Positions 6,860-20,847 of a DNA stretch of 20,913 nt are shown one piece after another. The notes below the pieces were generated by a model. It was given only the letters and a program-made list of their open reading frames with translations. It made no database searches and was not told the origin of the DNA. The DNA lies in IMG/VR virus record IMGVR_UViG_3300045970_000225, positions 1 to 20,913 of that record. One strand, given 5' to 3'. Both the position numbers and the translations under genes were made by a program. Position 1 is the stretch's first letter. Each line of letters starts with the position of its first letter. The stretch comes from a virus.

Positions 6860-9492
6860 GATTTTTTAGCATGGTCCTGTAACGCTTTTGCAATTAGGCC
6901 AACGTTGCGGCGAATCGTTGCCGGACTGAGATTGCCTGTGTGGTCGTGATAATTGATGGTGTGCCCTCCACCACCGCCGCCGTCAGCCATATCGCGGATG
7001 ACCTGCGCCTGTTTCTTCGGCAAAATCATTTCCTGCTCATGGACCTGAACGATTGGGTTGAGGTTTGCAGGGATGTCATAGCCACCGCGCGCCGATGCCA
7101 AGCTTAAAAAGCCCAACGCCGCGCCGGATGCAGCCACCCCGGCTTCGGGCGCGATGGCCCAGCCGTAGACAGGGATGGCGGCCGCTGATGCTGTGGCCGC
7201 TGCACCGGCCACCCCTGCGTTGGCGCTAATCTGGCTGATCGCCGCGACTTTTGCGGTCGTTTGCGTCAAAACGAGGTTGGCAAGCCATTTTGCGGCGCTT
7301 TGCGCCAACATATCGATTACCGCGCCGGTCACCACTTGCAGCATGTTTTGCAGCAATGATGAGACTTTGGTGGTGCCTTGCGCTGTACTGGACAGCACGC
7401 GGGCAAAACCGGATTCGATGCTGGCATACGCACCCAATTGCGCACGGCTTTGCAGTTGGGTGGCTTTTGATTTGATCGCGGTAAGCTTGGCTTGGTGCGC
7501 GGTCTCTGCTGCTTCGATTTGCGCATGGATCTGAGCCAAGGCGGTCGGGTCTTGGTCACTGCCATGCAACAAGGCTTCTGCTTCTTTGAGTGCCTGCGCT
7601 TTGATTTGGTAGCGTTTGGCCTCAAATCTTGCTTCCAGATCGAGCAATTTTTCTTCGGTGATCTGGTGCAAGGACAGTTTTAGTTCGGCATCTTGTTGCG
7701 CTGCATCGATTTCGGACAGATCGGCGTTGCGCTGGGCTTCAGCGACCACCTTGGCGGTCGCAATCGACTGATCTGCAAATGCCCGTTGCTCTTTATAGAC
7801 CTCGGCCAAGGCTGCTTTGGCCTCTTTGCTTTCGGCACCGAAGCGCGCCACGTTTTCGGTGTAGATCTTGTTGGCGATGTCCAGGCGCGCAAGGTAGTTG
7901 TGTCGGTACGCTTCAAGACTCAGCTTTTCTGCTGCGATGTCGTTTTCAAAGTCGTCTTTACGCACGGCTGCGGTTGCTGCATAGTATTTTTTCTCAACTT
8001 GCAGCTTTTCTTCTTTTGAGATGCCGACTGTTGCCAATATTTTGCGCCAATACGCGACCTCCTGCGCATGGCTGTATTCTTGCGCCGTCCCGGCGATTGC
8101 TTGTGATTTTGCGTAGGCTTCTTTTTCGGCTTCCAGTTTGCCTTCCCATTCTGCGGTGCGGCCTTTGTCCTTTTCGTCCTTGCCCTCTTTGGCAAATTCG
8201 TAACTCGGGCCGCCATGAATCTGCTTATCCTTGATTTCGGGGCCACGTGCAGGCGCGCGCAAGGCTATATCATCGAGCTTGGCCTTGCCGTCTGACGCGA
8301 TCTTGAAGAGCTTATCGACGTGTTTTTGCTCGATGTCCTCGATAATTTTGGTGCCGGTGGTCCATGCCTTTTTCGCACCGGAAAAATCGAGGGCAAACGC
8401 ACGTTCGGCGACCGAGGCAAACCGCAGCACGTTGGCGACACATAGCTCAATTTGCGCAACGACAAATAAAATGACCAGTTGCACCGCCACTTTTAGGCCC
8501 AAGAAAGCGATTTCAACCACCTTCAGCCCGTTTTCAAAGGTTGTCATTGCGTCCGGGGCTTGGGTGCCGAATACGGCGCTGGTTAGGTCGCCAATCTGGC
8601 CCCAACCGGACCGGATCATGCCCCACAGCTCGTTAACCACATCGCCACCGGTCCCGATGATGTTAAACAGAGACGTTAGGGTGAGCCCCATCACTTTGCC
8701 TGCCGATGGACCGGCACCCGACAACCAGCCGCCCAGACGGGCGAAGGTTGGCAGCAAAACGCCGCCCGCCTGCACTTCTAAAGAGGTCACGACCAGCTTC
8801 ATGTCGGCGAGCGATTCTTTGTATAACCTCACTTGTGCAACACCTTCTTCGCCGACAACCAGCCCGAGATCTTTTGTCTTTTGTTCCGCTTTTTTGATTT
8901 CTTCGGACGTCAATTTCATGGACGCCCTGACTTCGCCCCAGGCTTTGCCATAAATCTGCATGCCTGCGATGTTTTGTGCAATCGGGTTTTTGATTTCTTT
9001 GAGTTTACCGTTGACCTCGCCCATCACATCCAGTACGGGCCGGTATTCGCCAGCGCTATCCTTGACTTTGACGCCCAGGGTGTCAAAGGCCTGGCCGTTT
9101 TTGTGGATCTGTTTTGCCATGTTGGTGGCGGCCAACGTCACAACGTCGGAATCCAAGCCTAGATGACGCATGGCAACCATCATGACTGAGGCGCGCTCAG
9201 TCGTGATCCCCAATTGCACCGACAGTTTTTTGGCTTCGCCGGTCCAATTATTGGATGCGCTGATCAGTTCCTTGAAGGCGGCGCCGCCAGCGGCCACGGC
9301 GGTGAGCTTCCCAATCCAGCCGGTCAACAGGCTCAGTGTGCCACTCAGTTGTTTGGTTGCGTCCTGAATGGTATCGATACTTGAACGGATGTTCTTGCCC
9401 GCTTTTTGCGCGGCAAGTTCTGCCGCTTCCATACCTTGCGTAAATTTACTGGGGTCTGCCGTGACTTCGTATTCCGCTATTTTGTCAGTCAT
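6856..9492 (-). CDS. Tail tape measure protein
   Basis: At 878 residues this is the tape measure that sets tail length and is ejected with the DNA. The N-terminus (MTDKIAEYEVTADPSKFTQG) is typical of the family. About 30-300 holds helical segments with Gly-rich turns. Hydrophobic stretches occur near 330-365 (VAVQLVILFVVAQIELCVA) and near 750-800 (Ala/Gly rich). About 430-700 is strongly charged and should form long coiled coil. The C-terminal VHEQEMILPKKQAQVIRDM and the Gly run followed by HTINYHDH are common endings for this group. At about 0.15 nm per residue the tail would be roughly 130 nm (inference). The ATG at 9492 lies 25 nt after the GT stop, with no strong Shine-Dalgarno site; the stop overlaps the DUF2460 start as ATGA. 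Confidence 0.92.
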   Translation of the reverse strand: MTDKIAEYEVTADPSKFTQGMEAAELAAQKAGKNIRSSIDTIQDATKQLSGTLSLLTGWIGKLTAVAAGGAAFKELISASNNWTGEAKKLSVQLGITTERASVMMVAMRHLGLDSDVVTLAATNMAKQIHKNGQAFDTLGVKVKDSAGEYRPVLDVMGEVNGKLKEIKNPIAQNIAGMQIYGKAWGEVRASMKLTSEEIKKAEQKTKDLGLVVGEEGVAQVRLYKESLADMKLVVTSLEVQAGGVLLPTFARLGGWLSGAGPSAGKVMGLTLTSLFNIIGTGGDVVNELWGMIRSGWGQIGDLTSAVFGTQAPDAMTTFENGLKVVEIAFLGLKVAVQLVILFVVAQIELCVANVLRFASVAERAFALDFSGAKKAWTTGTKIIEDIEQKHVDKLFKIASDGKAKLDDIALRAPARGPEIKDKQIHGGPSYEFAKEGKDEKDKGRTAEWEGKLEAEKEAYAKSQAIAGTAQEYSHAQEVAYWRKILATVGISKEEKLQVEKKYYAATAAVRKDDFENDIAAEKLSLEAYRHNYLARLDIANKIYTENVARFGAESKEAKAALAEVYKEQRAFADQSIATAKVVAEAQRNADLSEIDAAQQDAELKLSLHQITEEKLLDLEARFEAKRYQIKAQALKEAEALLHGSDQDPTALAQIHAQIEAAETAHQAKLTAIKSKATQLQSRAQLGAYASIESGFARVLSSTAQGTTKVSSLLQNMLQVVTGAVIDMLAQSAAKWLANLVLTQTTAKVAAISQISANAGVAGAAATASAAAIPVYGWAIAPEAGVAASGAALGFLSLASARGGYDIPANLNPIVQVHEQEMILPKKQAQVIRDMADGGGGGGHTINYHDHTGNLSPATIRRNVGLIAKALQDHAKKS

Positions 9493-9517
9493 TGGAAAAC
9501 CACTTTTTCAAAAGTTG

Positions 9518-9772
9518 TTACGAAAACATTGCTACCATATCGTCAACCGTCATTTCACGATCCGCCTTTTCTTGCGGTTCGTAGCTAAGGTAGGCAGCGA
9601 CGAGGATATGAACCGGCGGATGCAGCCGCCAATATTTGTTTTGTGCCTGGATCGAAGGGATATCCCACTCGGTCCAGGCCTGCTGCGGCGTGCAGCCAGT
9701 GCTGGCAATAAGGTGCGCTATGAGGCTGTCAAGCCCATCGTCGCCATCTGTTCCTGCACTCGCCGCGCCATT
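9518..9772 (-). CDS. T domain of the GT tail assembly chaperone, read by -1 frameshift
   Basis: This stretch has no good start of its own. It is open in the -1 frame relative to the upstream G-like gene and encodes 84 residues from the slippery site to a TAA at 9518. The peptide begins NGAASAGTDGDDGLDSLIAH, contains QQAWTEWDIPSIQAQ followed by NKYWRLHPPVHILVAAYLSY, and ends MTVDDMVAMFS. Fused to the first 98 residues of the G-like protein it gives a GT product of about 182 residues. In lambda the GT form bridges the tape measure and tail tube subunits during assembly and is absent from the finished virion. It fills an otherwise empty gap of about 225 nt before the tape measure, exactly where T belongs. 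Confidence 0.87.
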   Translation of the reverse strand, partial: NGAASAGTDGDDGLDSLIAHLIASTGCTPQQAWTEWDIPSIQAQNKYWRLHPPVHILVAAYLSYEPQEKADREMTVDDMVAMFS

Positions 9773-12053: not shown

Positions 12054-14027
12054 TTATCTGACCAGGGCATCGCTTTTGACGGCGAAGGCTTCCGGATGGC
12101 GCACAGCAACGTCGATACTTTGCAAAAGACGCAACTCGATCGCGCCAGCTTCGTAGACACCGGCGATGTAGGGGTTAGGCAGGATTTCCATTGCGCCCCA
12201 TTCCCCGACAAGCACTTGCTCCCAATCGCCGAAAAAGATTTCGGACAAGAGACCGATGGCTGTCCCTTTAGAAAGATTGGATCTGGCTTGGTTTGTGCGT
12301 CCGACTGGGTACGCGTTAATCTCACCTGGCGTCCCATCACGTTGACCAACGGGCGAATTGGTCCACAGATAGGCACCGGTGGTGGTTTTGAGTTTCTTCA
12401 GCGCGCCAATCACAGCCGCGTTCGTCAGGTAGCCAAGCGATGATCCATCTGCGTTCGCGGTGGTAACCAATGTTTCCAGGTCAATAAAGTCATCAATGCT
12501 GATCAAACTACCATTTGCGCCCCCGACCACAGACCCAATCCCCGTTTGGTTTGCGATGCCGAGCGGCTGTCCGCCAGCGCCGCTGCCATACAGCACGGCT
12601 GCGTCAATACCTAATGCAGCCGTGCGCAGCATATCTTGCCGCACCAGCATTTCGACGTCGGGCGTGGCCTGCATCAACATGTCGCGCGTGATGACAGACA
12701 ACATGCCCATCGTCTTTTTTGTCAGACTAATTGAATCAAAACCGCCGCCGCTCTGCGGCACTACGCCGTTTTCACTTACCCAAAAAACTGATCCAGCCGC
12801 TTTTTGCCGGGGAATGGTGACATTGCCGACCAAGCCGGACAGCATGCGTGCGCCCATCGACAACGCCAAAGATTTATTGCGCAGCAACTCAATAAAATTT
12901 TCGGCCATCAATTGTGTCGATACCAAATTTGCACCGCCCGACGTCGCGCTCAACCCTGCGCCGGTGCCGATGCTATAGTCAGCCGCTCGGCCTGATGCGA
13001 ACTGGATGTTCGTCGGCATGTAAAAACCTGCCGTCCGTTTTCCAGATGCTTTTTCAATCGCCAACGAAACTTCGCGTTCAAATCCTGCGTCGCCCCATGC
13101 GTCTTTGACATTGGTCCGCTCGTTAAAGGATGCATTGATCGCGCGGATCATGCTGTAACGTGCCTTTTCACGCTCGGTCAAGTCTGGATTGGTATTGTTA
13201 CCCAACGATACCGCCCCGTTACTACGTGCCATTACGATGTCCAAAACGTAGCCACGTGCCGCGTCAATCGGTGCGTGCAGCGTAATCATGCTATTGCGCA
13301 CTTCGTCCGGGATCTTGTGCGCTTTGCACATAGCGTCGATTTCCGCAACACGGGATGCTTCTAAAGCGGCTTTATCAACTGGTGGTTCGGTGATTACGGT
13401 CATTGTGATTCCCTTCGGTTGTTCGGCCACTGGTGCCGGGTTGGATGCGGATCGCGTGACTAACACGTCCATCAAATTATTTGCTGCGCCCCGGCCCACA
13501 CCCACCGAGACATCGGCTGGCACGGTGCACAAGGTTATTTCGTAGACTTCCCAGGATGTGGCTGTGTAGATGTCGCTATCCACATCGGTGGTATAGGTAT
13601 AGACCCGGTACATAAACGAGACGTTTTGCAAGATGCGGTCATTGACCTGCATCATTGCCCATTCGCCCCGTTCGTCTTTGCCAAAGCGGACGGTGCAATA
13701 GCCGCGCTTGTCGGCGCCGATCCAGGCCTTTTCAACTACCCCGAGAATGTCATCGAGATCGTGGTTATAGAGCAATGGCCCGCCGGAATTGATCCGCGCC
13801 AAGTTGGCCGAACCAGCCTGATGGCTCAGTATTTCGGTGCCATACCACATGTCCACCGCCGCTTCGCTTGAAAACGAAAAAGTGACGGTGCGTGTCTCGA
13901 TATCGACAATGCCGACCGGCACCTCTGTTTCAGCACCGCCTGCGTCCGCCATCAGCCGCACATACCGCGTCAACGGCCCGAGCTGGTTGACGCCGGATTC
14001 AAGTTTGCGTTTTGCAATTACCGTCAT
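12054..14027 (-). CDS. Fused prohead protease and HK97-type major capsid protein
   Basis: This 657-residue protein joins two functions. Residues 1-185 resemble the S78/U35 prohead protease: His89 (in PLLYNHDLDD), Ser137 (in RILQNVSFMYRV) and Glu163 (in WEVYEITLCTVPAD) are the likely catalytic residues. After a linker with helices (about 205-300), the HK97-fold capsid protein follows from about 325, with VTIPRQ, AVLYGSGAGGQPLGIANQTG and a C-terminal WGAMEILPNPY. The protease should remove itself and the delta-like linker during head maturation. I place the start at the ATG 14027 because GGAG lies 9 nt upstream (14037-14040); a TTG at 14042 would lie on top of that ribosome site. The cleavage site is not identifiable by eye. 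An intrinsic terminator directly precedes the gene. Confidence 0.92.
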   Translation of the reverse strand: MTVIAKRKLESGVNQLGPLTRYVRLMADAGGAETEVPVGIVDIETRTVTFSFSSEAAVDMWYGTEILSHQAGSANLARINSGGPLLYNHDLDDILGVVEKAWIGADKRGYCTVRFGKDERGEWAMMQVNDRILQNVSFMYRVYTYTTDVDSDIYTATSWEVYEITLCTVPADVSVGVGRGAANNLMDVLVTRSASNPAPVAEQPKGITMTVITEPPVDKAALEASRVAEIDAMCKAHKIPDEVRNSMITLHAPIDAARGYVLDIVMARSNGAVSLGNNTNPDLTEREKARYSMIRAINASFNERTNVKDAWGDAGFEREVSLAIEKASGKRTAGFYMPTNIQFASGRAADYSIGTGAGLSATSGGANLVSTQLMAENFIELLRNKSLALSMGARMLSGLVGNVTIPRQKAAGSVFWVSENGVVPQSGGGFDSISLTKKTMGMLSVITRDMLMQATPDVEMLVRQDMLRTAALGIDAAVLYGSGAGGQPLGIANQTGIGSVVGGANGSLISIDDFIDLETLVTTANADGSSLGYLTNAAVIGALKKLKTTTGAYLWTNSPVGQRDGTPGEINAYPVGRTNQARSNLSKGTAIGLLSEIFFGDWEQVLVGEWGAMEILPNPYIAGVYEAGAIELRLLQSIDVAVRHPEAFAVKSDALVR

Positions 14028-14040
14028 AAAGTAAAACTCC

Positions 14041-14076
14041 AAAAGAAAAAGCCCGCGCTATTGCTGGCGCGGGCTT
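14041..14076 (-). terminator. Intrinsic terminator between portal and capsid genes
   Basis: On the coding strand AGCCCGCGC and GCGCGGGCT form a 9-bp GC-rich stem with an 8-nt loop, followed at once by TTTTTCTTTT. The T tract abuts the GGAG ribosome site of the capsid gene. It lies 19 nt after the portal stop at 14095, in the middle of the structural operon and pointing along it, so unmodified polymerase should stop here. Confidence 0.85.
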
Positions 14077-14094
14077 CTGTGTGATCAATCAATG

Positions 14095-15684
14095 TTATTC
14101 GTTTTGGGGGTCGGATGCCGCTTGCTCTGGTGCCGGGTCGGGGACTTCTTGGCCTTGCACCGATCCCTTCAGATCCGTTTGGGCCGGGTCTGTATCAAAC
14201 ACAAGGCCAAGTTCGGCAATCATGTCCAGTTCGCGCCGTCGATTTTTAAGTAAGTCCTCAAGATCGGCATGTTCGGATGTCTGGCTGATGACTGAGTCCA
14301 GGGTCATAAAGCCACCTCGTACCGCTGCTTTGTATGCGGCAACTTCTTTTTGCGGATCGATCCACGACCAGCCGCGCGGTTTGAATAGAACCGCCCGATA
14401 TTTTCGTATCTTCGTGAAGTAGTCATTAATCGGCAACTGCCCGGACAAGACGGCGGCCCCGAGCCAGTCGCGATGAACGCCCCGGCGAAAATTGCGAATG
14501 TACCAGCCTTGGAGGATGCGCCACATATCACGATCCTCCAGCAGGGACAGGCGCGAAGCACTGTAATTTGACTGCGAATAATCACCCGACACGCTGGCAT
14601 ACGACACGCCGATACCGACAGCGAACGCCCTGAGCATATAGCGCATGAATGGATCAAGCCCGGCGTTTGGACGGGACGGGTTAAATCCGGTGAATTTTTC
14701 ACCTGGTTGCAGTTGCTGGATCGTGCCTGGCTCCATCGAGATCGTCGGCGCACCACCTTCATCTTCCGGGTTATCCGGCGTCAATCCTTCCTCACTTTCG
14801 ATGAGGCCGAAGATCGACGCCGCCGCACGGGCCGCTACAATTTCCGCTTCTTCGTAGCCTTGCATGTTATGCAGGCGTTTCAGGGTGGCGTGCAGCCACG
14901 GCACGCCACGCGTCTGGCCGATCCGGTCAGGGATGAAGAGATGGATCATGTCTTCGGCTGGCACGCGGATCAAGGCGCTGGCAACGAACGTGCTGAATTG
15001 ATAATCACCCGGATGTGACGGGTAGAGCCAATAGGCGACCGGTCGGCCCCATTGATTTTGTTCGACCCCCATGCGAATGACGTTACCGTTTTCAGCGCGG
15101 GCAACGCTCCATTGGTCAATCAGCCGGTCCGCCTCGATCAGTTCAAGTGCATACGGAATATTCGTGTCGCCAAACGGCATCCGCACCTTGCGGATCAATA
15201 CTTCCCCGTTTTCAACAATTGACCGGATAATCAATCGCTCCATGTCGGCAAAACACAGCTTCCCGGCTGGATCGCACGTATCTTTATCCGTCCATTCCAG
15301 CCATTCGTCCTCAATCAGGTCATTGATGCGAGTCATCAAGCTGCCGTCAGCATTGGTCACTTGCGCCTGCATCCCCACGCCGGTGCCGATCACGTTGTTG
15401 ACAATGATGCGGACCGCCGCCTTAGCGTATTCATTGTCGCGGATCAGCGCTCTGGACCGCGCCCGCAACTGGCGCAAGCTGGTGATGATTTCACTGTCGG
15501 CTGACGTATTCTGTGCCGACCAATCACCAGACAAGCGCCCCATCTGGGCACCGGCATACATACGCTTGCTGGTGTTCGCCTTGCTTAACAGCGCCTTTTG
15601 CGCAGCACGGTCGGCGTTCCACTTGGCGAGGACCACAGACCCCGGCTGACTTACCCGTGACTCGTCATAAAATTTTGTGGTCAT
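14095..15684 (-). CDS. Portal protein, lambda GpB family
   Basis: At 529 residues this protein fits the lambda-type portal family (PF05136). It forms the dodecameric ring at one capsid vertex through which DNA enters and leaves and on which terminase docks. Recognisable features are the early RSRALIRDNEYAKAAVRIIV (about 74-93) with NNVIGTGVGMQ, then WTDKDTCDPAGKLCFADMER, NGEVLIRKV, IHLFIPDRIGQTRGVPWLHA and the SGDYSQSNYSASRLSLLEDR region that is highly conserved in the family. The acidic Pro-rich end (about 505-529) is probably flexible. The ATG overlaps the stop of the gpW-position gene (ATGA). The lambda portal is longer and is followed by a separate protease; here the protease is fused to the capsid gene instead. 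Confidence 0.93.
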   Translation of the reverse strand: MTTKFYDESRVSQPGSVVLAKWNADRAAQKALLSKANTSKRMYAGAQMGRLSGDWSAQNTSADSEIITSLRQLRARSRALIRDNEYAKAAVRIIVNNVIGTGVGMQAQVTNADGSLMTRINDLIEDEWLEWTDKDTCDPAGKLCFADMERLIIRSIVENGEVLIRKVRMPFGDTNIPYALELIEADRLIDQWSVARAENGNVIRMGVEQNQWGRPVAYWLYPSHPGDYQFSTFVASALIRVPAEDMIHLFIPDRIGQTRGVPWLHATLKRLHNMQGYEEAEIVAARAAASIFGLIESEEGLTPDNPEDEGGAPTISMEPGTIQQLQPGEKFTGFNPSRPNAGLDPFMRYMLRAFAVGIGVSYASVSGDYSQSNYSASRLSLLEDRDMWRILQGWYIRNFRRGVHRDWLGAAVLSGQLPINDYFTKIRKYRAVLFKPRGWSWIDPQKEVAAYKAAVRGGFMTLDSVISQTSEHADLEDLLKNRRRELDMIAELGLVFDTDPAQTDLKGSVQGQEVPDPAPEQAASDPQNE

Positions 15685-16244
15685 TTGAACCTCACAAGCA
15701 AGCGACGTGGATTTTGCCCGCCATTGGCAATCACCTGGCGCGCGCGCTCACTGTTGACACGTTGTTGCCAGAATTGCCTTAGTGCCATCAAGTCAATAAG
15801 GCTGTGGAATTCGGTCTGGCGCGTACCGATGGAATAGCTTTTGATCTTGCCGCCCGACCCCTTGAACGATGCCAACGCGGCTTCACAATCGGCCAGGGCA
15901 CGTTCAGCAACCGAGCGCGCATCTATTGCACCATCGCCCGCCGACAGGTCAGCGCTGACCGTCAGCGTACCCTGGCCGATGGTCATGCGATGGTCTTGCA
16001 TGGACAGCTTTGCAGACCACGCATACTGGCCGGGCAACAGGCTGGCGCTGTCTGTGGCGCTGATGCTGCAATGCCAACCGTCGCCGTTTGCCACGCCGAC
16101 GACAGTCAGTTGTGACGGGCCTCTCAGGTAATAATTGAGGGTCCATTCGGCGCTGGTGTACTGCTCATGGGATGACGATAAGCACCATGGCGTATCGTCC
16201 CAAGAACCCGAATCACCGGCCACCATCATTAATGGTATTTTCAT
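15681..16244 (-). CDS. gpW-position head protein with a possible gpW-like C-terminus
   Basis: This 187-residue protein is encoded between large terminase and portal, where lambda has W (68 residues). The first ~100 residues are beta-rich and look like an immunoglobulin-like fold (SAEWTLNYYLRGPSQLTVVG, SISATDSASLLPGQYAWSAK). The C-terminal ~70 residues are helical: VAERALADCEAALASFKGS, then a KSYSIGTRQTEFHSLIDLMA segment and RQFWQQRVNSERAR. This helix, beta hairpin, helix order is like gpW, the connector that seals the packaged head. The gene could thus be a gpW extended by an N-terminal domain; that is an inference. I chose ATG 16244, which follows GGTGA at the terminase stop; GTG at 16250 or TTG at 16253 are possible. 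Confidence 0.62.
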   Translation of the reverse strand: MKIPLMMVAGDSGSWDDTPWCLSSSHEQYTSAEWTLNYYLRGPSQLTVVGVANGDGWHCSISATDSASLLPGQYAWSAKLSMQDHRMTIGQGTLTVSADLSAGDGAIDARSVAERALADCEAALASFKGSGGKIKSYSIGTRQTEFHSLIDLMALRQFWQQRVNSERARQVIANGGQNPRRLLVRFK

Positions 16245-16246
16245 AA

Positions 16247-18331
16247 TCACCAACTATTGGCAGAGAATCCACCGACCCGGCGTTGTTGCCGCAGCTTCGG
16301 TGTTTTAGGTTTAAGAGCTGGCGTTGGTTCAGCCGCTGGTGCTACTGCCTGCGGCTGTGCATCTTCATTTTCTGGCTCCTCGGAGGCGAGGGGCACAGCC
16401 AGAGGCACCGGATCGGCAGGGAAAAACATTTGCTTTTGCCGCAGTTGCATATCAATGGCATCCCAATACGACGGTTTCAGGAGATGCAGTTTTAGCGACA
16501 TGGCCGCGTGCAGCGCGTACACCTCACAATCCAACGCTTCGTTGCGCACACCGGCGCGAGGGGTCCAAACAAAGCGATTCCGCTGCTTTTTGTGTGGCGT
16601 TTTAACCTCGCTTGTGATCTGATCCCAGTAATCGGGACGGACCGACTTGTACCAATGCAGACGCCCCGGCCCTTTCCCCGTCAGCGACAAGCGCCCATCG
16701 ATCATTAAATCTTTGGCCCGATTCGTGCCGACGATGTACGGGCGCACGCCCGAGGGATGCGGCGTGTGATTGCCCCGCACGTCAATCGATTGCGACGGCT
16801 TGGCAAAAATTTCTTTGGCGGTGCCGGATTGTTCCGATGCACCTTTGATCGCCATGTAATTGCGCCCGGCCCGTTTGCGGACATAGGCATAGACTGCATC
16901 GGTGGTGGTCCCATCAGACGAGTCGACCGATACCGCGCTTATCGGCATTGGGTTACCGCTGGCGTGGAGAATCTCGCTGTTCAGCAGCGCGTCCAGGTCG
17001 AGCCATGCACCGCTGTTTTCGATGAGGGTTTGGCCGTAGATCTCGCCCCAATAGACTAACCAGGACTCCATCCCCCTGCCCCACGCTCTTATCACAATCG
17101 CAAGCCGGTTATGCTGCACGTCCACGCCAACAGTCAGTCGGCCACCGCCCCAAGGCACTGTCATTTCTGGATAATCTTCAGCGCGCGCGGCCAAGGCGTC
17201 CGCTTTGGGCACGTCGCTTTTATACTCGTATGGCAAGCCTTCGGTACTATTGCGAAACGCCCGCATTTTTGTGTCATCACCAGCCCGGAGGAGGTGATCG
17301 GCAACCAGGAATTTTTTCATCAACTCCTGCAAAACGCTACCCGGAAACGGGGAATACAACTCATTGATGTAAAAACCGGCGATGCCATAAAAAGCCGCTG
17401 TTGCAATCCATACGCCCTTGGTGACGTTGTGGTTTTTTTCGGCGTCATTCCATGCCGCACCGCAGTGCGGACAAATATAGCGCGCCGTCTCTGGTCGGGT
17501 ATGCCCAAAATTTTCATGGACGAATTCCGGGTCTTCCGTTGCCGTGACGTTTTCCCAGGCGAGGACATGCGTTTCACCACAATGGTGACAAGGGATAAAA
17601 AATTTCCGCTGGTCGCTCGACAGGTACGCTGTTTCGATCTTTGAGACACCTTTAACTGTCGGCGTCCCCCCGAACACAACCTTACTGCGCGGGAATGTCT
17701 TGACGCGCTCTTCCAGCAGCGTGATCGTGTCGCCTTGCTCGCGCACATTGTCGTTACAATCGTCCGGTTCTTCGACCGCGACAATCGGTGCCGGGGTCGA
17801 TTTCACAGAACTGGGCGAATTCGACCCAACCAGTTTCAGGAAACCGCCGCCAAAACTCTTGTAATCCCACCGGTTATCACTATTTTTGCGCCGCTGAATC
17901 TGCAATTTCGCGGCCAGCCGTGGCGTAACTTCGGCCATCGGAACGAATTTTTCCTCGGAGAATTCCTTCGCCGCCTTTTCTTTGGCGAACATGATGATCA
18001 TCGCGCATGGCTCTAGGTCAATTTTTTTCGCGACGTAATTGAGCAGGACGCCATCGGTCCATGCAATTTGCGCACTCTTCATCGCCACCATTTTTTTGAC
18101 CAGCGGATCATCCAATGCGTCGTGCATGCCGCGAACCCAGGGCGTTCTGTCCGGGTTGTAATCGCCCGGCTCGGCGGTGGTCTTACTCGACATCTTCCGG
18201 TGGGCACGGGCCCAATCGGTCAACGAGATGCGTTCCGCTGGCTCAATCAGCCCCGCTATCCGGCACAACAGCGATATGACGGCTGGCATCGTATCGAGCA
18301 AGGTGTCGGAAGGCGGCGTGCGTAAAGTCAT
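16247..18331 (-). CDS. Terminase large subunit, GpA family
   Basis: This 694-residue protein is the packaging motor and cos/pac nuclease of the lambda GpA type. Motifs in order: a Walker A-like KSAQIAWTDG at 85-94 (compare KSARVGYSKM in lambda), a Walker B-like IVAVEEPD at 183-190, a ...VVFGGTPTVKGVSKIE coupling segment near 218-233, a zinc-ribbon-like CHHC (248-251) with CPHC (287-290), and nuclease acidic residues Asp404 (VGVDVQHNRLA) and Asp470 (AVSVDSSDG). The C-terminus is Pro/Ala/Glu rich and probably disordered until the final RQQRRVGGFSANSW. The ATG 18331 follows AGGT by 6 nt and overlaps the small terminase gene by 89 nt, an unusually long but plausible overlap. An inner ATG at 18289 has no ribosome site. 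Confidence 0.94.
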   Translation of the reverse strand: MTLRTPPSDTLLDTMPAVISLLCRIAGLIEPAERISLTDWARAHRKMSSKTTAEPGDYNPDRTPWVRGMHDALDDPLVKKMVAMKSAQIAWTDGVLLNYVAKKIDLEPCAMIIMFAKEKAAKEFSEEKFVPMAEVTPRLAAKLQIQRRKNSDNRWDYKSFGGGFLKLVGSNSPSSVKSTPAPIVAVEEPDDCNDNVREQGDTITLLEERVKTFPRSKVVFGGTPTVKGVSKIETAYLSSDQRKFFIPCHHCGETHVLAWENVTATEDPEFVHENFGHTRPETARYICPHCGAAWNDAEKNHNVTKGVWIATAAFYGIAGFYINELYSPFPGSVLQELMKKFLVADHLLRAGDDTKMRAFRNSTEGLPYEYKSDVPKADALAARAEDYPEMTVPWGGGRLTVGVDVQHNRLAIVIRAWGRGMESWLVYWGEIYGQTLIENSGAWLDLDALLNSEILHASGNPMPISAVSVDSSDGTTTDAVYAYVRKRAGRNYMAIKGASEQSGTAKEIFAKPSQSIDVRGNHTPHPSGVRPYIVGTNRAKDLMIDGRLSLTGKGPGRLHWYKSVRPDYWDQITSEVKTPHKKQRNRFVWTPRAGVRNEALDCEVYALHAAMSLKLHLLKPSYWDAIDMQLRQKQMFFPADPVPLAVPLASEEPENEDAQPQAVAPAAEPTPALKPKTPKLRQQRRVGGFSANSW

Positions 18332-18728
18332 TCAGTACCTGTACATCGAGATTAATTCCGTACAACTGATCCAGGTTGGCCTTGATCTTGTCGTCACGCG
18401 CCAGCAACTCGGTTTTCCATGCGCCGACCATCTGCATCAACGCCGGTTCAAGCTGCGCCACGTTGATCAATTGCGCCTTCTTTTCCGCGAGCACTAATTG
18501 TTTCATTTCGCGCTCAACGCGCTCGGTGAGAACGCGCTCACTCACCAGGTCGGCGCCGGTGCTGCTCACATGCCCGGACGCCTGCGCCCGCAATTGGCGG
18601 ATATACGCAAACCGCACCTCATCTAGCGTGGCGGTACGCCAATCAAAATCCGCTTGTTTAAAGAAGCGGCTAACAGCAGATTGATCCAGGTCGAGATGGG
18701 CAGCGATTTCAGTCTGAGTCAGTGCCAT
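18243..18728 (-). CDS. Terminase small subunit (Nu1/DUF1441-like)
   Basis: This 161-residue protein is encoded just before the large terminase. It begins with a helix-turn-helix (MALTQTEIAAHLDLDQSAVS, RFFKQADFDW), a winged-helix start typical of gpNu1-type subunits that recognise the packaging site. It continues with a long helix rich in Glu/Lys (ERVEREMKQLVLAEKKAQLI) and ends in VQVLNDFTHAAFRHLARY, probably the contact to the large subunit. I chose the second ATG (18728) because AAGGA lies 5 nt upstream; the ATG at 18734 overlaps that site. Family naming rests on the N-terminal HTH, the length and the neighbour. Confidence 0.82.
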   Translation of the reverse strand: MALTQTEIAAHLDLDQSAVSRFFKQADFDWRTATLDEVRFAYIRQLRAQASGHVSSTGADLVSERVLTERVEREMKQLVLAEKKAQLINVAQLEPALMQMVGAWKTELLARDDKIKANLDQLYGINLDVQVLNDFTHAAFRHLARYDASRHIAVVPDSGAD

Positions 18729-18866
18729 AAACATCCTTGTTTGGGCCTGAATATGACCCCCTTACAATGCAGCAAAATAAAGAGTTTTCGGGGTCTTCGT
18801 ACCCGCAGTGTCGGTGTGTCCGGTAAGTACCTTGGGATTTTTTAGAGGCTGGCGGCTGCATCAGGC
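18729..18866. other. Noncoding gap upstream of terminase; candidate packaging site
   Basis: About 138 nt separate the gpZ-like gene from small terminase, and I see no gene in them. On the plus strand there is an inverted repeat GGTA-ag-TACC at 18822-18831 and a GGGT-cttcgt-ACCC hairpin at 18791-18804, besides the AAGGA ribosome site of the small terminase. In lambda, cos lies just before nu1, so this is the natural place for a packaging initiation site, but no cos sequence is recognisable. Confidence 0.3.
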
Positions 18867-19451
18867 CTAGCCCTTGCGACCGAAGCGCTTGATCTGCGCA
18901 CGCAGTAGCTCAGGGAACTTTTGCCCAATGAATGCAGTAACCGCATCGACCACGGCTTGGTTGTTGGCGGCATCGGGGATGCTGGGGCCGTACAGTTCTT
19001 TGATGGGTAAGCCGCTCCATTGCGTGCGCCCATTCTTGCTGACCTTTTTGTGGGCCTTGCCCATCCTCACGTACACACCACGGTGGCCGTTGGGCATGGT
19101 GGCGATGAATGCGCCTGCAATGACCTTACGACCGTTAAGGACCGACACGGACACACCGCGTGCAGTTTGGCGGGCACCGTACTTGACCAAGGATAGCGGG
19201 CGGCCCTTGGCCGTTATCTTCGCTGTCAGCTGGCCTGAGCGGGCCGGGCGAACTGTCAAGCCATCCTTGACATCGCCAATCTTGAGATTGTAGCCAACTG
19301 CCTTGATTTGCCGGGCTGTTTGATTCTTTGCCTGCTCGATTGTCTTGTTGATTGCTGCTGGTAGTGCAGCGTCGAGCACATCACGCCTCACTGATCGCAG
19401 ATCGGCGATGATCTTGCCCATGTCGCCACGCACGTCTACTTTGATACCCAT
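18867..19451 (-). CDS. Minor tail protein Z-like (GpZ family)
   Basis: This 194-residue basic protein closely fits the prophage minor tail protein Z family (lambda gpZ has 192 residues), which acts at the head-proximal end of the tail during joining. Typical parts are the N-terminal MGIKVDVRGDMGKIIADLRS, the AALPAAINKTIEQAKNQTAR helix at about 28-47, the RPLSLVKYGARQTARGVSVS segment, the AFIATMPNGHRGVYVRMGKA segment, and the closing VVDAVTAFIGQKFPELLRAQ helix followed by IKRFGRKG. The ATG follows AAGG by 6 nt. Its location is odd: it lies before terminase instead of between the head-tail joining and tail terminator genes. Confidence 0.82.
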   Translation of the reverse strand: MGIKVDVRGDMGKIIADLRSVRRDVLDAALPAAINKTIEQAKNQTARQIKAVGYNLKIGDVKDGLTVRPARSGQLTAKITAKGRPLSLVKYGARQTARGVSVSVLNGRKVIAGAFIATMPNGHRGVYVRMGKAHKKVSKNGRTQWSGLPIKELYGPSIPDAANNQAVVDAVTAFIGQKFPELLRAQIKRFGRKG

Positions 19452-19936: not shown

Positions 19937-19966
19937 CAAGGCTCCAAAGCTGGGAACCGGAGACGA

Positions 19967-20430: not shown

Positions 20431-20847
20431 TTAAAATTGCGCGCCGACCGGCCCATTCTCGAATGCCGCATCGAGCCGGGTCATCGCATCCTTTTCAATG
20501 TTTTTAAGCGCCTTGGCGATGGCTTCCGCGTAGCCTTTGACCGTGGTCGGGTGCAGGCCGCATTGGGTTGCGATTTGCTTCAACTGCTTTTTATCGTCTT
20601 TGCGCTCGAAGAAGCGCACAACACATTCGCGCCGCACCAGGGCGTCAGCGCGGCTGATGGCCGGGATCGCCACACGGACATAATCGGTCAGCAGTGCAAT
20701 CGCGGCTGTCCATTGCCTGTTTGGCTTGATCCCAGCACAGCACGGCGATGTGCAGTCACACGCGAAAGATCGTTGCACCATCTTGGCAATGATCACAGCC
20801 CGTTCTGGTTCGGCTGGCAAAGCGTTTTCAAACCGCGCTTTGATCAT
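20431..20847 (-). CDS. Putative late antitermination protein (Q-like)
   Basis: This 138-residue protein heads the region. A cysteine cluster, Cys30, Cys32, Cys36 and Cys37 (FACDCTSPCCAGIKPNRQW), could bind zinc. The C-terminal third holds a likely helix-turn-helix (KQLKQIATQCGLHPTTVKGY at about 87-106), similar in shape to a sigma70 region 4 or DNA-binding domain. Small Cys-rich, HTH-bearing proteins of this size at the end of the delayed early region are often annotated as Q-type antiterminators. The placement strongly supports this: a promoter starts 8 nt after its stop and an intrinsic terminator follows, as in lambda Q-pR'-tR'. The ATG 20847 has a GGCGGG-rich leader; the frame is open to the window end, so a longer N-terminus is possible. 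A general HTH regulator is the alternative. Confidence 0.6.
   Translation of the reverse strand: MIKARFENALPAEPERAVIIAKMVQRSFACDCTSPCCAGIKPNRQWTAAIALLTDYVRVAIPAISRADALVRRECVVRFFERKDDKKQLKQIATQCGLHPTTVKGYAEAIAKALKNIEKDAMTRLDAAFENGPVGAQF

Follow-up and report, generated by a model that had tools for sequence, protein, structure and literature searches.

A terminator directly before the capsid gene is conserved in a group of temperate phages whose late operon may be antiterminated

An intrinsic terminator, as judged by sequence and fold, separates the portal gene from the capsid gene in the late operon of a 20.9-kb virus record, and most of the relatives of this virus carry such an element at the same junction. 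We analysed the whole stretch of 20,913 nucleotides, which is referred to below as the window. The reading that we slightly favour, drawn from the anatomy of the operon, is that late transcription is antiterminated, and that the element would be passed in lytic growth and would stop unmodified polymerase. The parts of this reading that can be seen in the DNA are the hairpin with its T tract, its recurrence with compensated stems, and a promoter and leader terminator behind a gene encoding an HTH protein; termination activity is predicted. These parts are ordinary in themselves. What is new, as far as the literature searched shows, is the conserved placement of terminators around the capsid gene together with an AlpA-like gene before the late promoter. 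Despite deep divergence the terminator has stayed at one junction as its sequence changed, and other genomes beside these lack it. The group is a natural comparison set for weighing the tuning of stoichiometry against a backstop that limits leaky late expression in lysogens.

The portal–capsid junction

The late head-tail operon lies on the minus strand, as do all the genes and elements of the window that are located below, and its order is HTH gene, two short genes, gpZ-like gene, terminase small subunit (TerS), terminase large subunit (TerL), joining protein, portal, protease–capsid fusion and tail genes. The gpZ-like minor tail/neck protein, an early gene of the late operon (18867..19451; PF06763, phrog_27), is followed by TerS (18243..18734; phrog_57), a TerL of the GpA type (16247..18331; PF05876, PF20454), the head-tail joining protein (15681..16253; phrog_5774), a portal protein of the lambda family (14095..15684; PF05136, E 1e-112) and a 657-aa fusion of prohead protease and major capsid protein (12054..14027; PF04586 and PF05065, phrog_617). 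Scans placed two tandem terminator-like hairpins (19937-19909 and 19898-19881) on the 5' side of the structural genes. Among the tail genes, a 225-nt gap (9492-9718) separates a 115-aa tail gene from the tape measure gene; this is the place where the reading frame of a frameshifted tail chaperone would be expected.

The portal stop codon TAA (14097-14095) and the capsid ATG (14027-14025) are separated by 67 nt, and the terminator occupies positions 14078-14041 between them. It is composed of a 12-bp stem with the arms AGAAGCCCGCGC (5' arm, 14078-14067) and GCGCGGGCTTTT (3' arm, 14058-14047), an 8-nt loop (14066-14059) and the T tract TTTTTCTTTT (14050-14041; 9/10 T), which runs directly into GGAG, the capsid Shine-Dalgarno sequence (14040-14037). 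Both hallmarks of an intrinsic terminator are present, a stable GC-rich hairpin with a short loop and a nearly uninterrupted T tract after the stem, and a pattern scan of the window ranked the site among the two strongest terminator-like sites. The predicted minimum energy of the hairpin is -22.1 kcal/mol, against a shuffle mean of -10.0 +/- 2.4 (z -5.1), and none of 200 shuffles folds as well; these shuffles and the comparison with other head junctions (see below) rule out a chance hairpin. An earlier note on this DNA had proposed a terminator here, pointing along the operon and touching the capsid ribosome site, and on both counts the sequence, the fold and the scans bear it out. The 9-bp GC stem of that note is obtained if one A-U pair is counted; the GC core itself has 8 bp, and the stem reaches 12 bp with all A-U pairs.

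The terminator is oriented along the operon only, and a bidirectional terminator is ruled out by the poor tail on the opposite strand (TTCTGTGTGATC). The hairpin has no Rfam match, which speaks against a known structured RNA, and its single copy in the record speaks against a repeated element. Two further suggestions made beforehand were abandoned. A promoter that had been missed between the two genes is not supported by the scans of the window, which found no promoter-like site there, and only 13 nt lie between the T tract and the ATG, leaving no room for one. Masking of GGAG by the hairpin, suggested as a way in which ribosome access could change, does not appear in the predicted folds, where GGAG and the terminator stem do not pair. 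On the 3' side of the capsid gene no terminator was found in the window.

Control of the late operon

The upstream end of the operon has the layout of a Q/AlpA-type antiterminated late operon, namely a regulator gene, a late promoter and a close intrinsic terminator. The regulator position is taken by a 138-aa HTH protein (20431..20847), a candidate Q/AlpA-type antiterminator on account of its location and a weak AlpA match. The putative late promoter TTGACA-17-GATTAT (10/12; 20423-20395) begins 7 nt past the stop codon of this gene, and about 37 nt downstream of the promoter lies a tR'-like leader terminator, GAAGCCCGGCCCTAAAAGCCGGGCTTT (20357-20331), recognised by its sequence, by the scan and by the pairing of promoter with terminator. 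The HTH gene has no significant Pfam or PHROGs match, AlpA was absent from the sequence search with its protein, and a scan by DNA pattern confirmed no relatives of the gene. Comparison with the AlpA-like family A2 gave a weak hhalign match (P 0.0055, Prob 6.6%), and the top two Foldseek matches of a low-confidence model (mean pLDDT 55) were the AlpA structures 7xyb and 7xya (E 0.13 and 0.23). The link between the window's own HTH protein and the AlpA-type regulators is weak.

In relatives, too, regulator, promoter and terminator precede the late operon in this order. Of 35 upstream regions, 5 have a promoter matching at least 10/12 positions with a terminator no more than 120 nt away; the corresponding figure for shuffles is 0.0. 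An AlpA-like gene stands directly upstream of the promoter in L095 (1766-2731), L096 (2252-3217), L110 (2652-3347) and L145 (2697-3350), and in this set the promoter spacer and the stretch after the hexamers are conserved. The gene belongs to phrog_17923, which is listed under 'unknown function'; an alignment of this type matched AlpA in the PDB (profile E 1e-6), and the model of one such protein from a relative found AlpA at a Foldseek E of 1.9e-5. phrog_17923 is probably a family of phage late antiterminators, and we flag its AlpA-like proteins as such. The candidate regulators of L101, L098, L119 and L114 have no significant Pfam or PHROGs match, and those of L101, L119 and L114 have no PDB sequence match. 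The promoter with its leader terminator was seen in 9 of 20 relatives that carry the capsid terminator and in 1 of 5 that do not, figures that do not establish statistically that antitermination and the capsid terminator go together.

Among the three options that the earlier note had put forward, an antiterminated late polymerase is the best supported, considering the promoter and leader terminator behind the HTH gene and the AlpA-like gene of the relatives. During lytic growth a Q/AlpA-type protein would load at the late promoter (20423-20395), and the modified polymerase would run past the leader terminator, past the two hairpins at 19937/19898 and past the terminator at 14078, and would continue through the capsid and tail genes. 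If the antiterminator were missing, polymerase would stop at 14041, before the capsid gene. Such unmodified polymerase could stem from lysogeny, from read-in from host or early promoters, or from starts inside the terminase or portal genes. The terminator would be a backstop that keeps the capsid and tail genes off and not a switch during lysis. The selective force acting on a terminator that the antiterminated polymerase ignores is one that we infer only.

Several known systems resemble this arrangement in part. The pR'-tR'-Q region of lambda and the Q-like control of Pseudomonas phage YA3 (PMC7326022) share with it the series of regulator, late promoter, leader terminator and late genes; they differ in that the HTH gene described here has no recognisable Q-family match and an additional conserved terminator precedes the capsid gene. 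AlpA of Pseudomonas aeruginosa (PMC7969949, PMC9371919), a proven antiterminator, is loaded in the region from -35 to -10 and overcomes intrinsic terminators that lie 26-54 nt downstream (PMC7969949). The phrog_17923-type regulator of the relatives matches it in sequence and fold, and here too the promoter is followed by a terminator 20-45 nt later, whereas AlpA serves a lysis pathway instead of a phage late operon and the window's own protein matches it weakly. Salmonella phage L has a predicted intrinsic terminator at the edge of the head module in an antiterminated late operon with a single promoter (PMC8022706), but that site marks the end of the procapsid module of a single genome, while the terminator studied here lies before the capsid gene and is recurrent and compensated group-wide. 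According to the authors of the phage L study, the roles of terminators inside the operon are not known, and partial termination or the stopping of spurious transcription was proposed (PMC8022706). GafZ passes terminators inside the phage-like structural cluster of the Caulobacter gene transfer agent (PMC11150451); the likeness lies in a terminator within such a cluster that is bypassed by a dedicated antiterminator, although the terminator there is of a repeat type, stands after the first gene and is served by a different protein.

Conservation among relatives

Relatives of the capsid gene were gathered from viral contigs and genomes and made non-redundant. A terminator is located at the same junction in 40 of these 63 relatives, or 40 of 56 in the ingroup, as counted by an automatic hairpin finder with the state set by hand for L094 and L119, where the start codon had been chosen differently. 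Under a strict filter the portal–capsid junction carries a terminator in 34 of 56 loci, a number that includes L158 and probably L151, whose hairpins look like chance or coding ones, and that misses L117, L119 and L165. The other head junctions gave 3/55 (TerL to joining protein), 0/55 (joining protein to portal) and 0/36 (TerS to TerL) under the same filter. Portal–capsid gaps of 40-120 nt, a class partly defined by the terminator itself, contain one in 24 of 27 cases, against 0.8 expected by shuffling.

The 40 hairpins represent 20 distinct stem bases, whose sequences differ and whose pairing is kept. Within these 20 stems the two arms are paired at 97% of the six lowest positions, against 60% when the arms are swapped between genomes and 75% in the best of 2000 swaps. 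As far as sequence can show, the terminator appears to be kept by selection, and it persists through the ingroup on the capsid tree. On this unrooted tree its state changes about 11 times, a figure that includes two rows cut at the capsid start and in which gain and loss are indistinguishable. The statement that a stop signal is missing from this stretch in most phages holds for the nine annotated distant cousins that were checked, none of which has a terminator at the junction; in the window's own group, on the other hand, the terminator is the rule. The presence of an integrase in 15 of 19 relatives indicates that the group is temperate. Relatives such as L107 and L122 carry an integrase and have no terminator at the junction, and therefore the terminator is dispensable.

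In most relatives the T tract ends at GGAG or a few bases from the ribosome site, and in nearly all of them 15-26 nt separate the end of the hairpin from the ATG. The loop is of the GNRA or UNCG type in about half of the hairpins (21/40). Together with the T tract that abuts GGAG, these features would agree with a role in the mRNA, where the hairpin would end a processed portal message or protect the 5' side of the capsid message and the U-rich stretch would aid ribosome (S1) binding, uncoupling capsid translation from that of portal. The same can be said of the relatives that lack the hairpin, in most of which the portal and capsid genes overlap or nearly do so. However, compactness of the genomes would also lead to tight spacing, other terminators of these operons likewise abut the ribosome site that follows, and the canonical T tract exceeds what an mRNA hairpin needs. 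We consider this role unlikely.

Terminators around the capsid gene

Both sides of the capsid gene are visible in 52 ingroup genomes. A terminator is located just 3' of the gene in 29 of them; both flanks carry one in 22, at least one flank in 46 and neither in 6. Among the distant cousins, the hairpin finder reported a terminator only after the capsid gene in VP882, phiHAP-1, Persinger and RcRhea, and Mica has one there by its own annotation, which the finder did not report at the threshold used. It is conceivable, if doubtful, that fencing of the capsid gene by terminators is itself the conserved architecture, isolating a capsid cistron that only antiterminated polymerase could reach. If this were true, a possible reason would be that stray capsid protein is harmful in lysogens or triggers host defences.

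The bracketing of the capsid gene in these genomes, and the terminators after it in the five cousins, could also point to partial termination, in which some late polymerases stop before and after this gene and packaging, capsid and tail proteins are made in graded amounts. In T7 a terminator, T-phi, borders the major capsid gene: it directly follows gene 10, and readthrough accounts for the expression of genes 11-12 (PMC5592923). With GafZ, too, only part of the polymerase gets through. T-phi differs, however, in being located after the capsid gene and in acting on a phage polymerase with partial readthrough, and the site in the window, being upstream, is not T-phi-like. A stop before the capsid gene would lower capsid relative to portal and terminase, which is the opposite of what is needed, and the three serial sites of L105 and L142 would starve the tail genes unless they were read through. 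The setting of protein ratios, another option of the earlier note, fits the terminators after the capsid gene better than those before it, where the direction is wrong, and survives as a rather unlikely rival of the backstop.

The late operons of L105 and L142 each have three terminators, before the capsid gene, after it and before the gene for the major tail protein, and each of these runs into or near the ribosome site of the next gene. In L105, nearly identical hairpins precede the capsid gene and the tail gene.

Inserts between portal and capsid

Inserts of about 0.6-3.1 kb separate portal and capsid in 14 ingroup genomes, and the insert state changes about 9 times on the unrooted capsid tree. 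In 10 of the 14 the terminator lies 3' of the insert and still directly before the capsid gene, which ties it to the capsid gene and not to the insert. Since in several relatives a cargo gene stands between portal and terminator, the element is not simply a moron scar.

It could nevertheless be the remnant or docking edge of a moron or cargo slot, which would have taken up a cargo gene together with the terminator of that gene and later lost the gene. Such an origin would agree with the ten terminators that follow inserts and with the observation that morons are usually independently expressed insertions in phage operons (PMC2629481). We hold it to be very unlikely: the terminator is present without an insert in 26 ingroup genomes, the window's own clade has the terminator and no insert in all members whose portal side is visible (6/7), the stems stay paired over long divergence, and in many cases the inserted genes overlap with the stop codon of portal. 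A moron in the window itself was rejected, as portal and capsid have no gene between them and the scans found no promoter-like site in the gap.

The site between portal and capsid is possibly an exchangeable slot for head-bound enzymes. Large proteins are encoded there in L012 (3389-4897), L016 (3021-4901), L027 (3465-4844), L125 (1814-3181), L146 (6142-8967) and L094 (3004-4908). They have in common an N-terminal stretch like NPWTVPDxLAxELVNRxxA, and their C-terminal parts differ, some of them being GDSL lipase-like.
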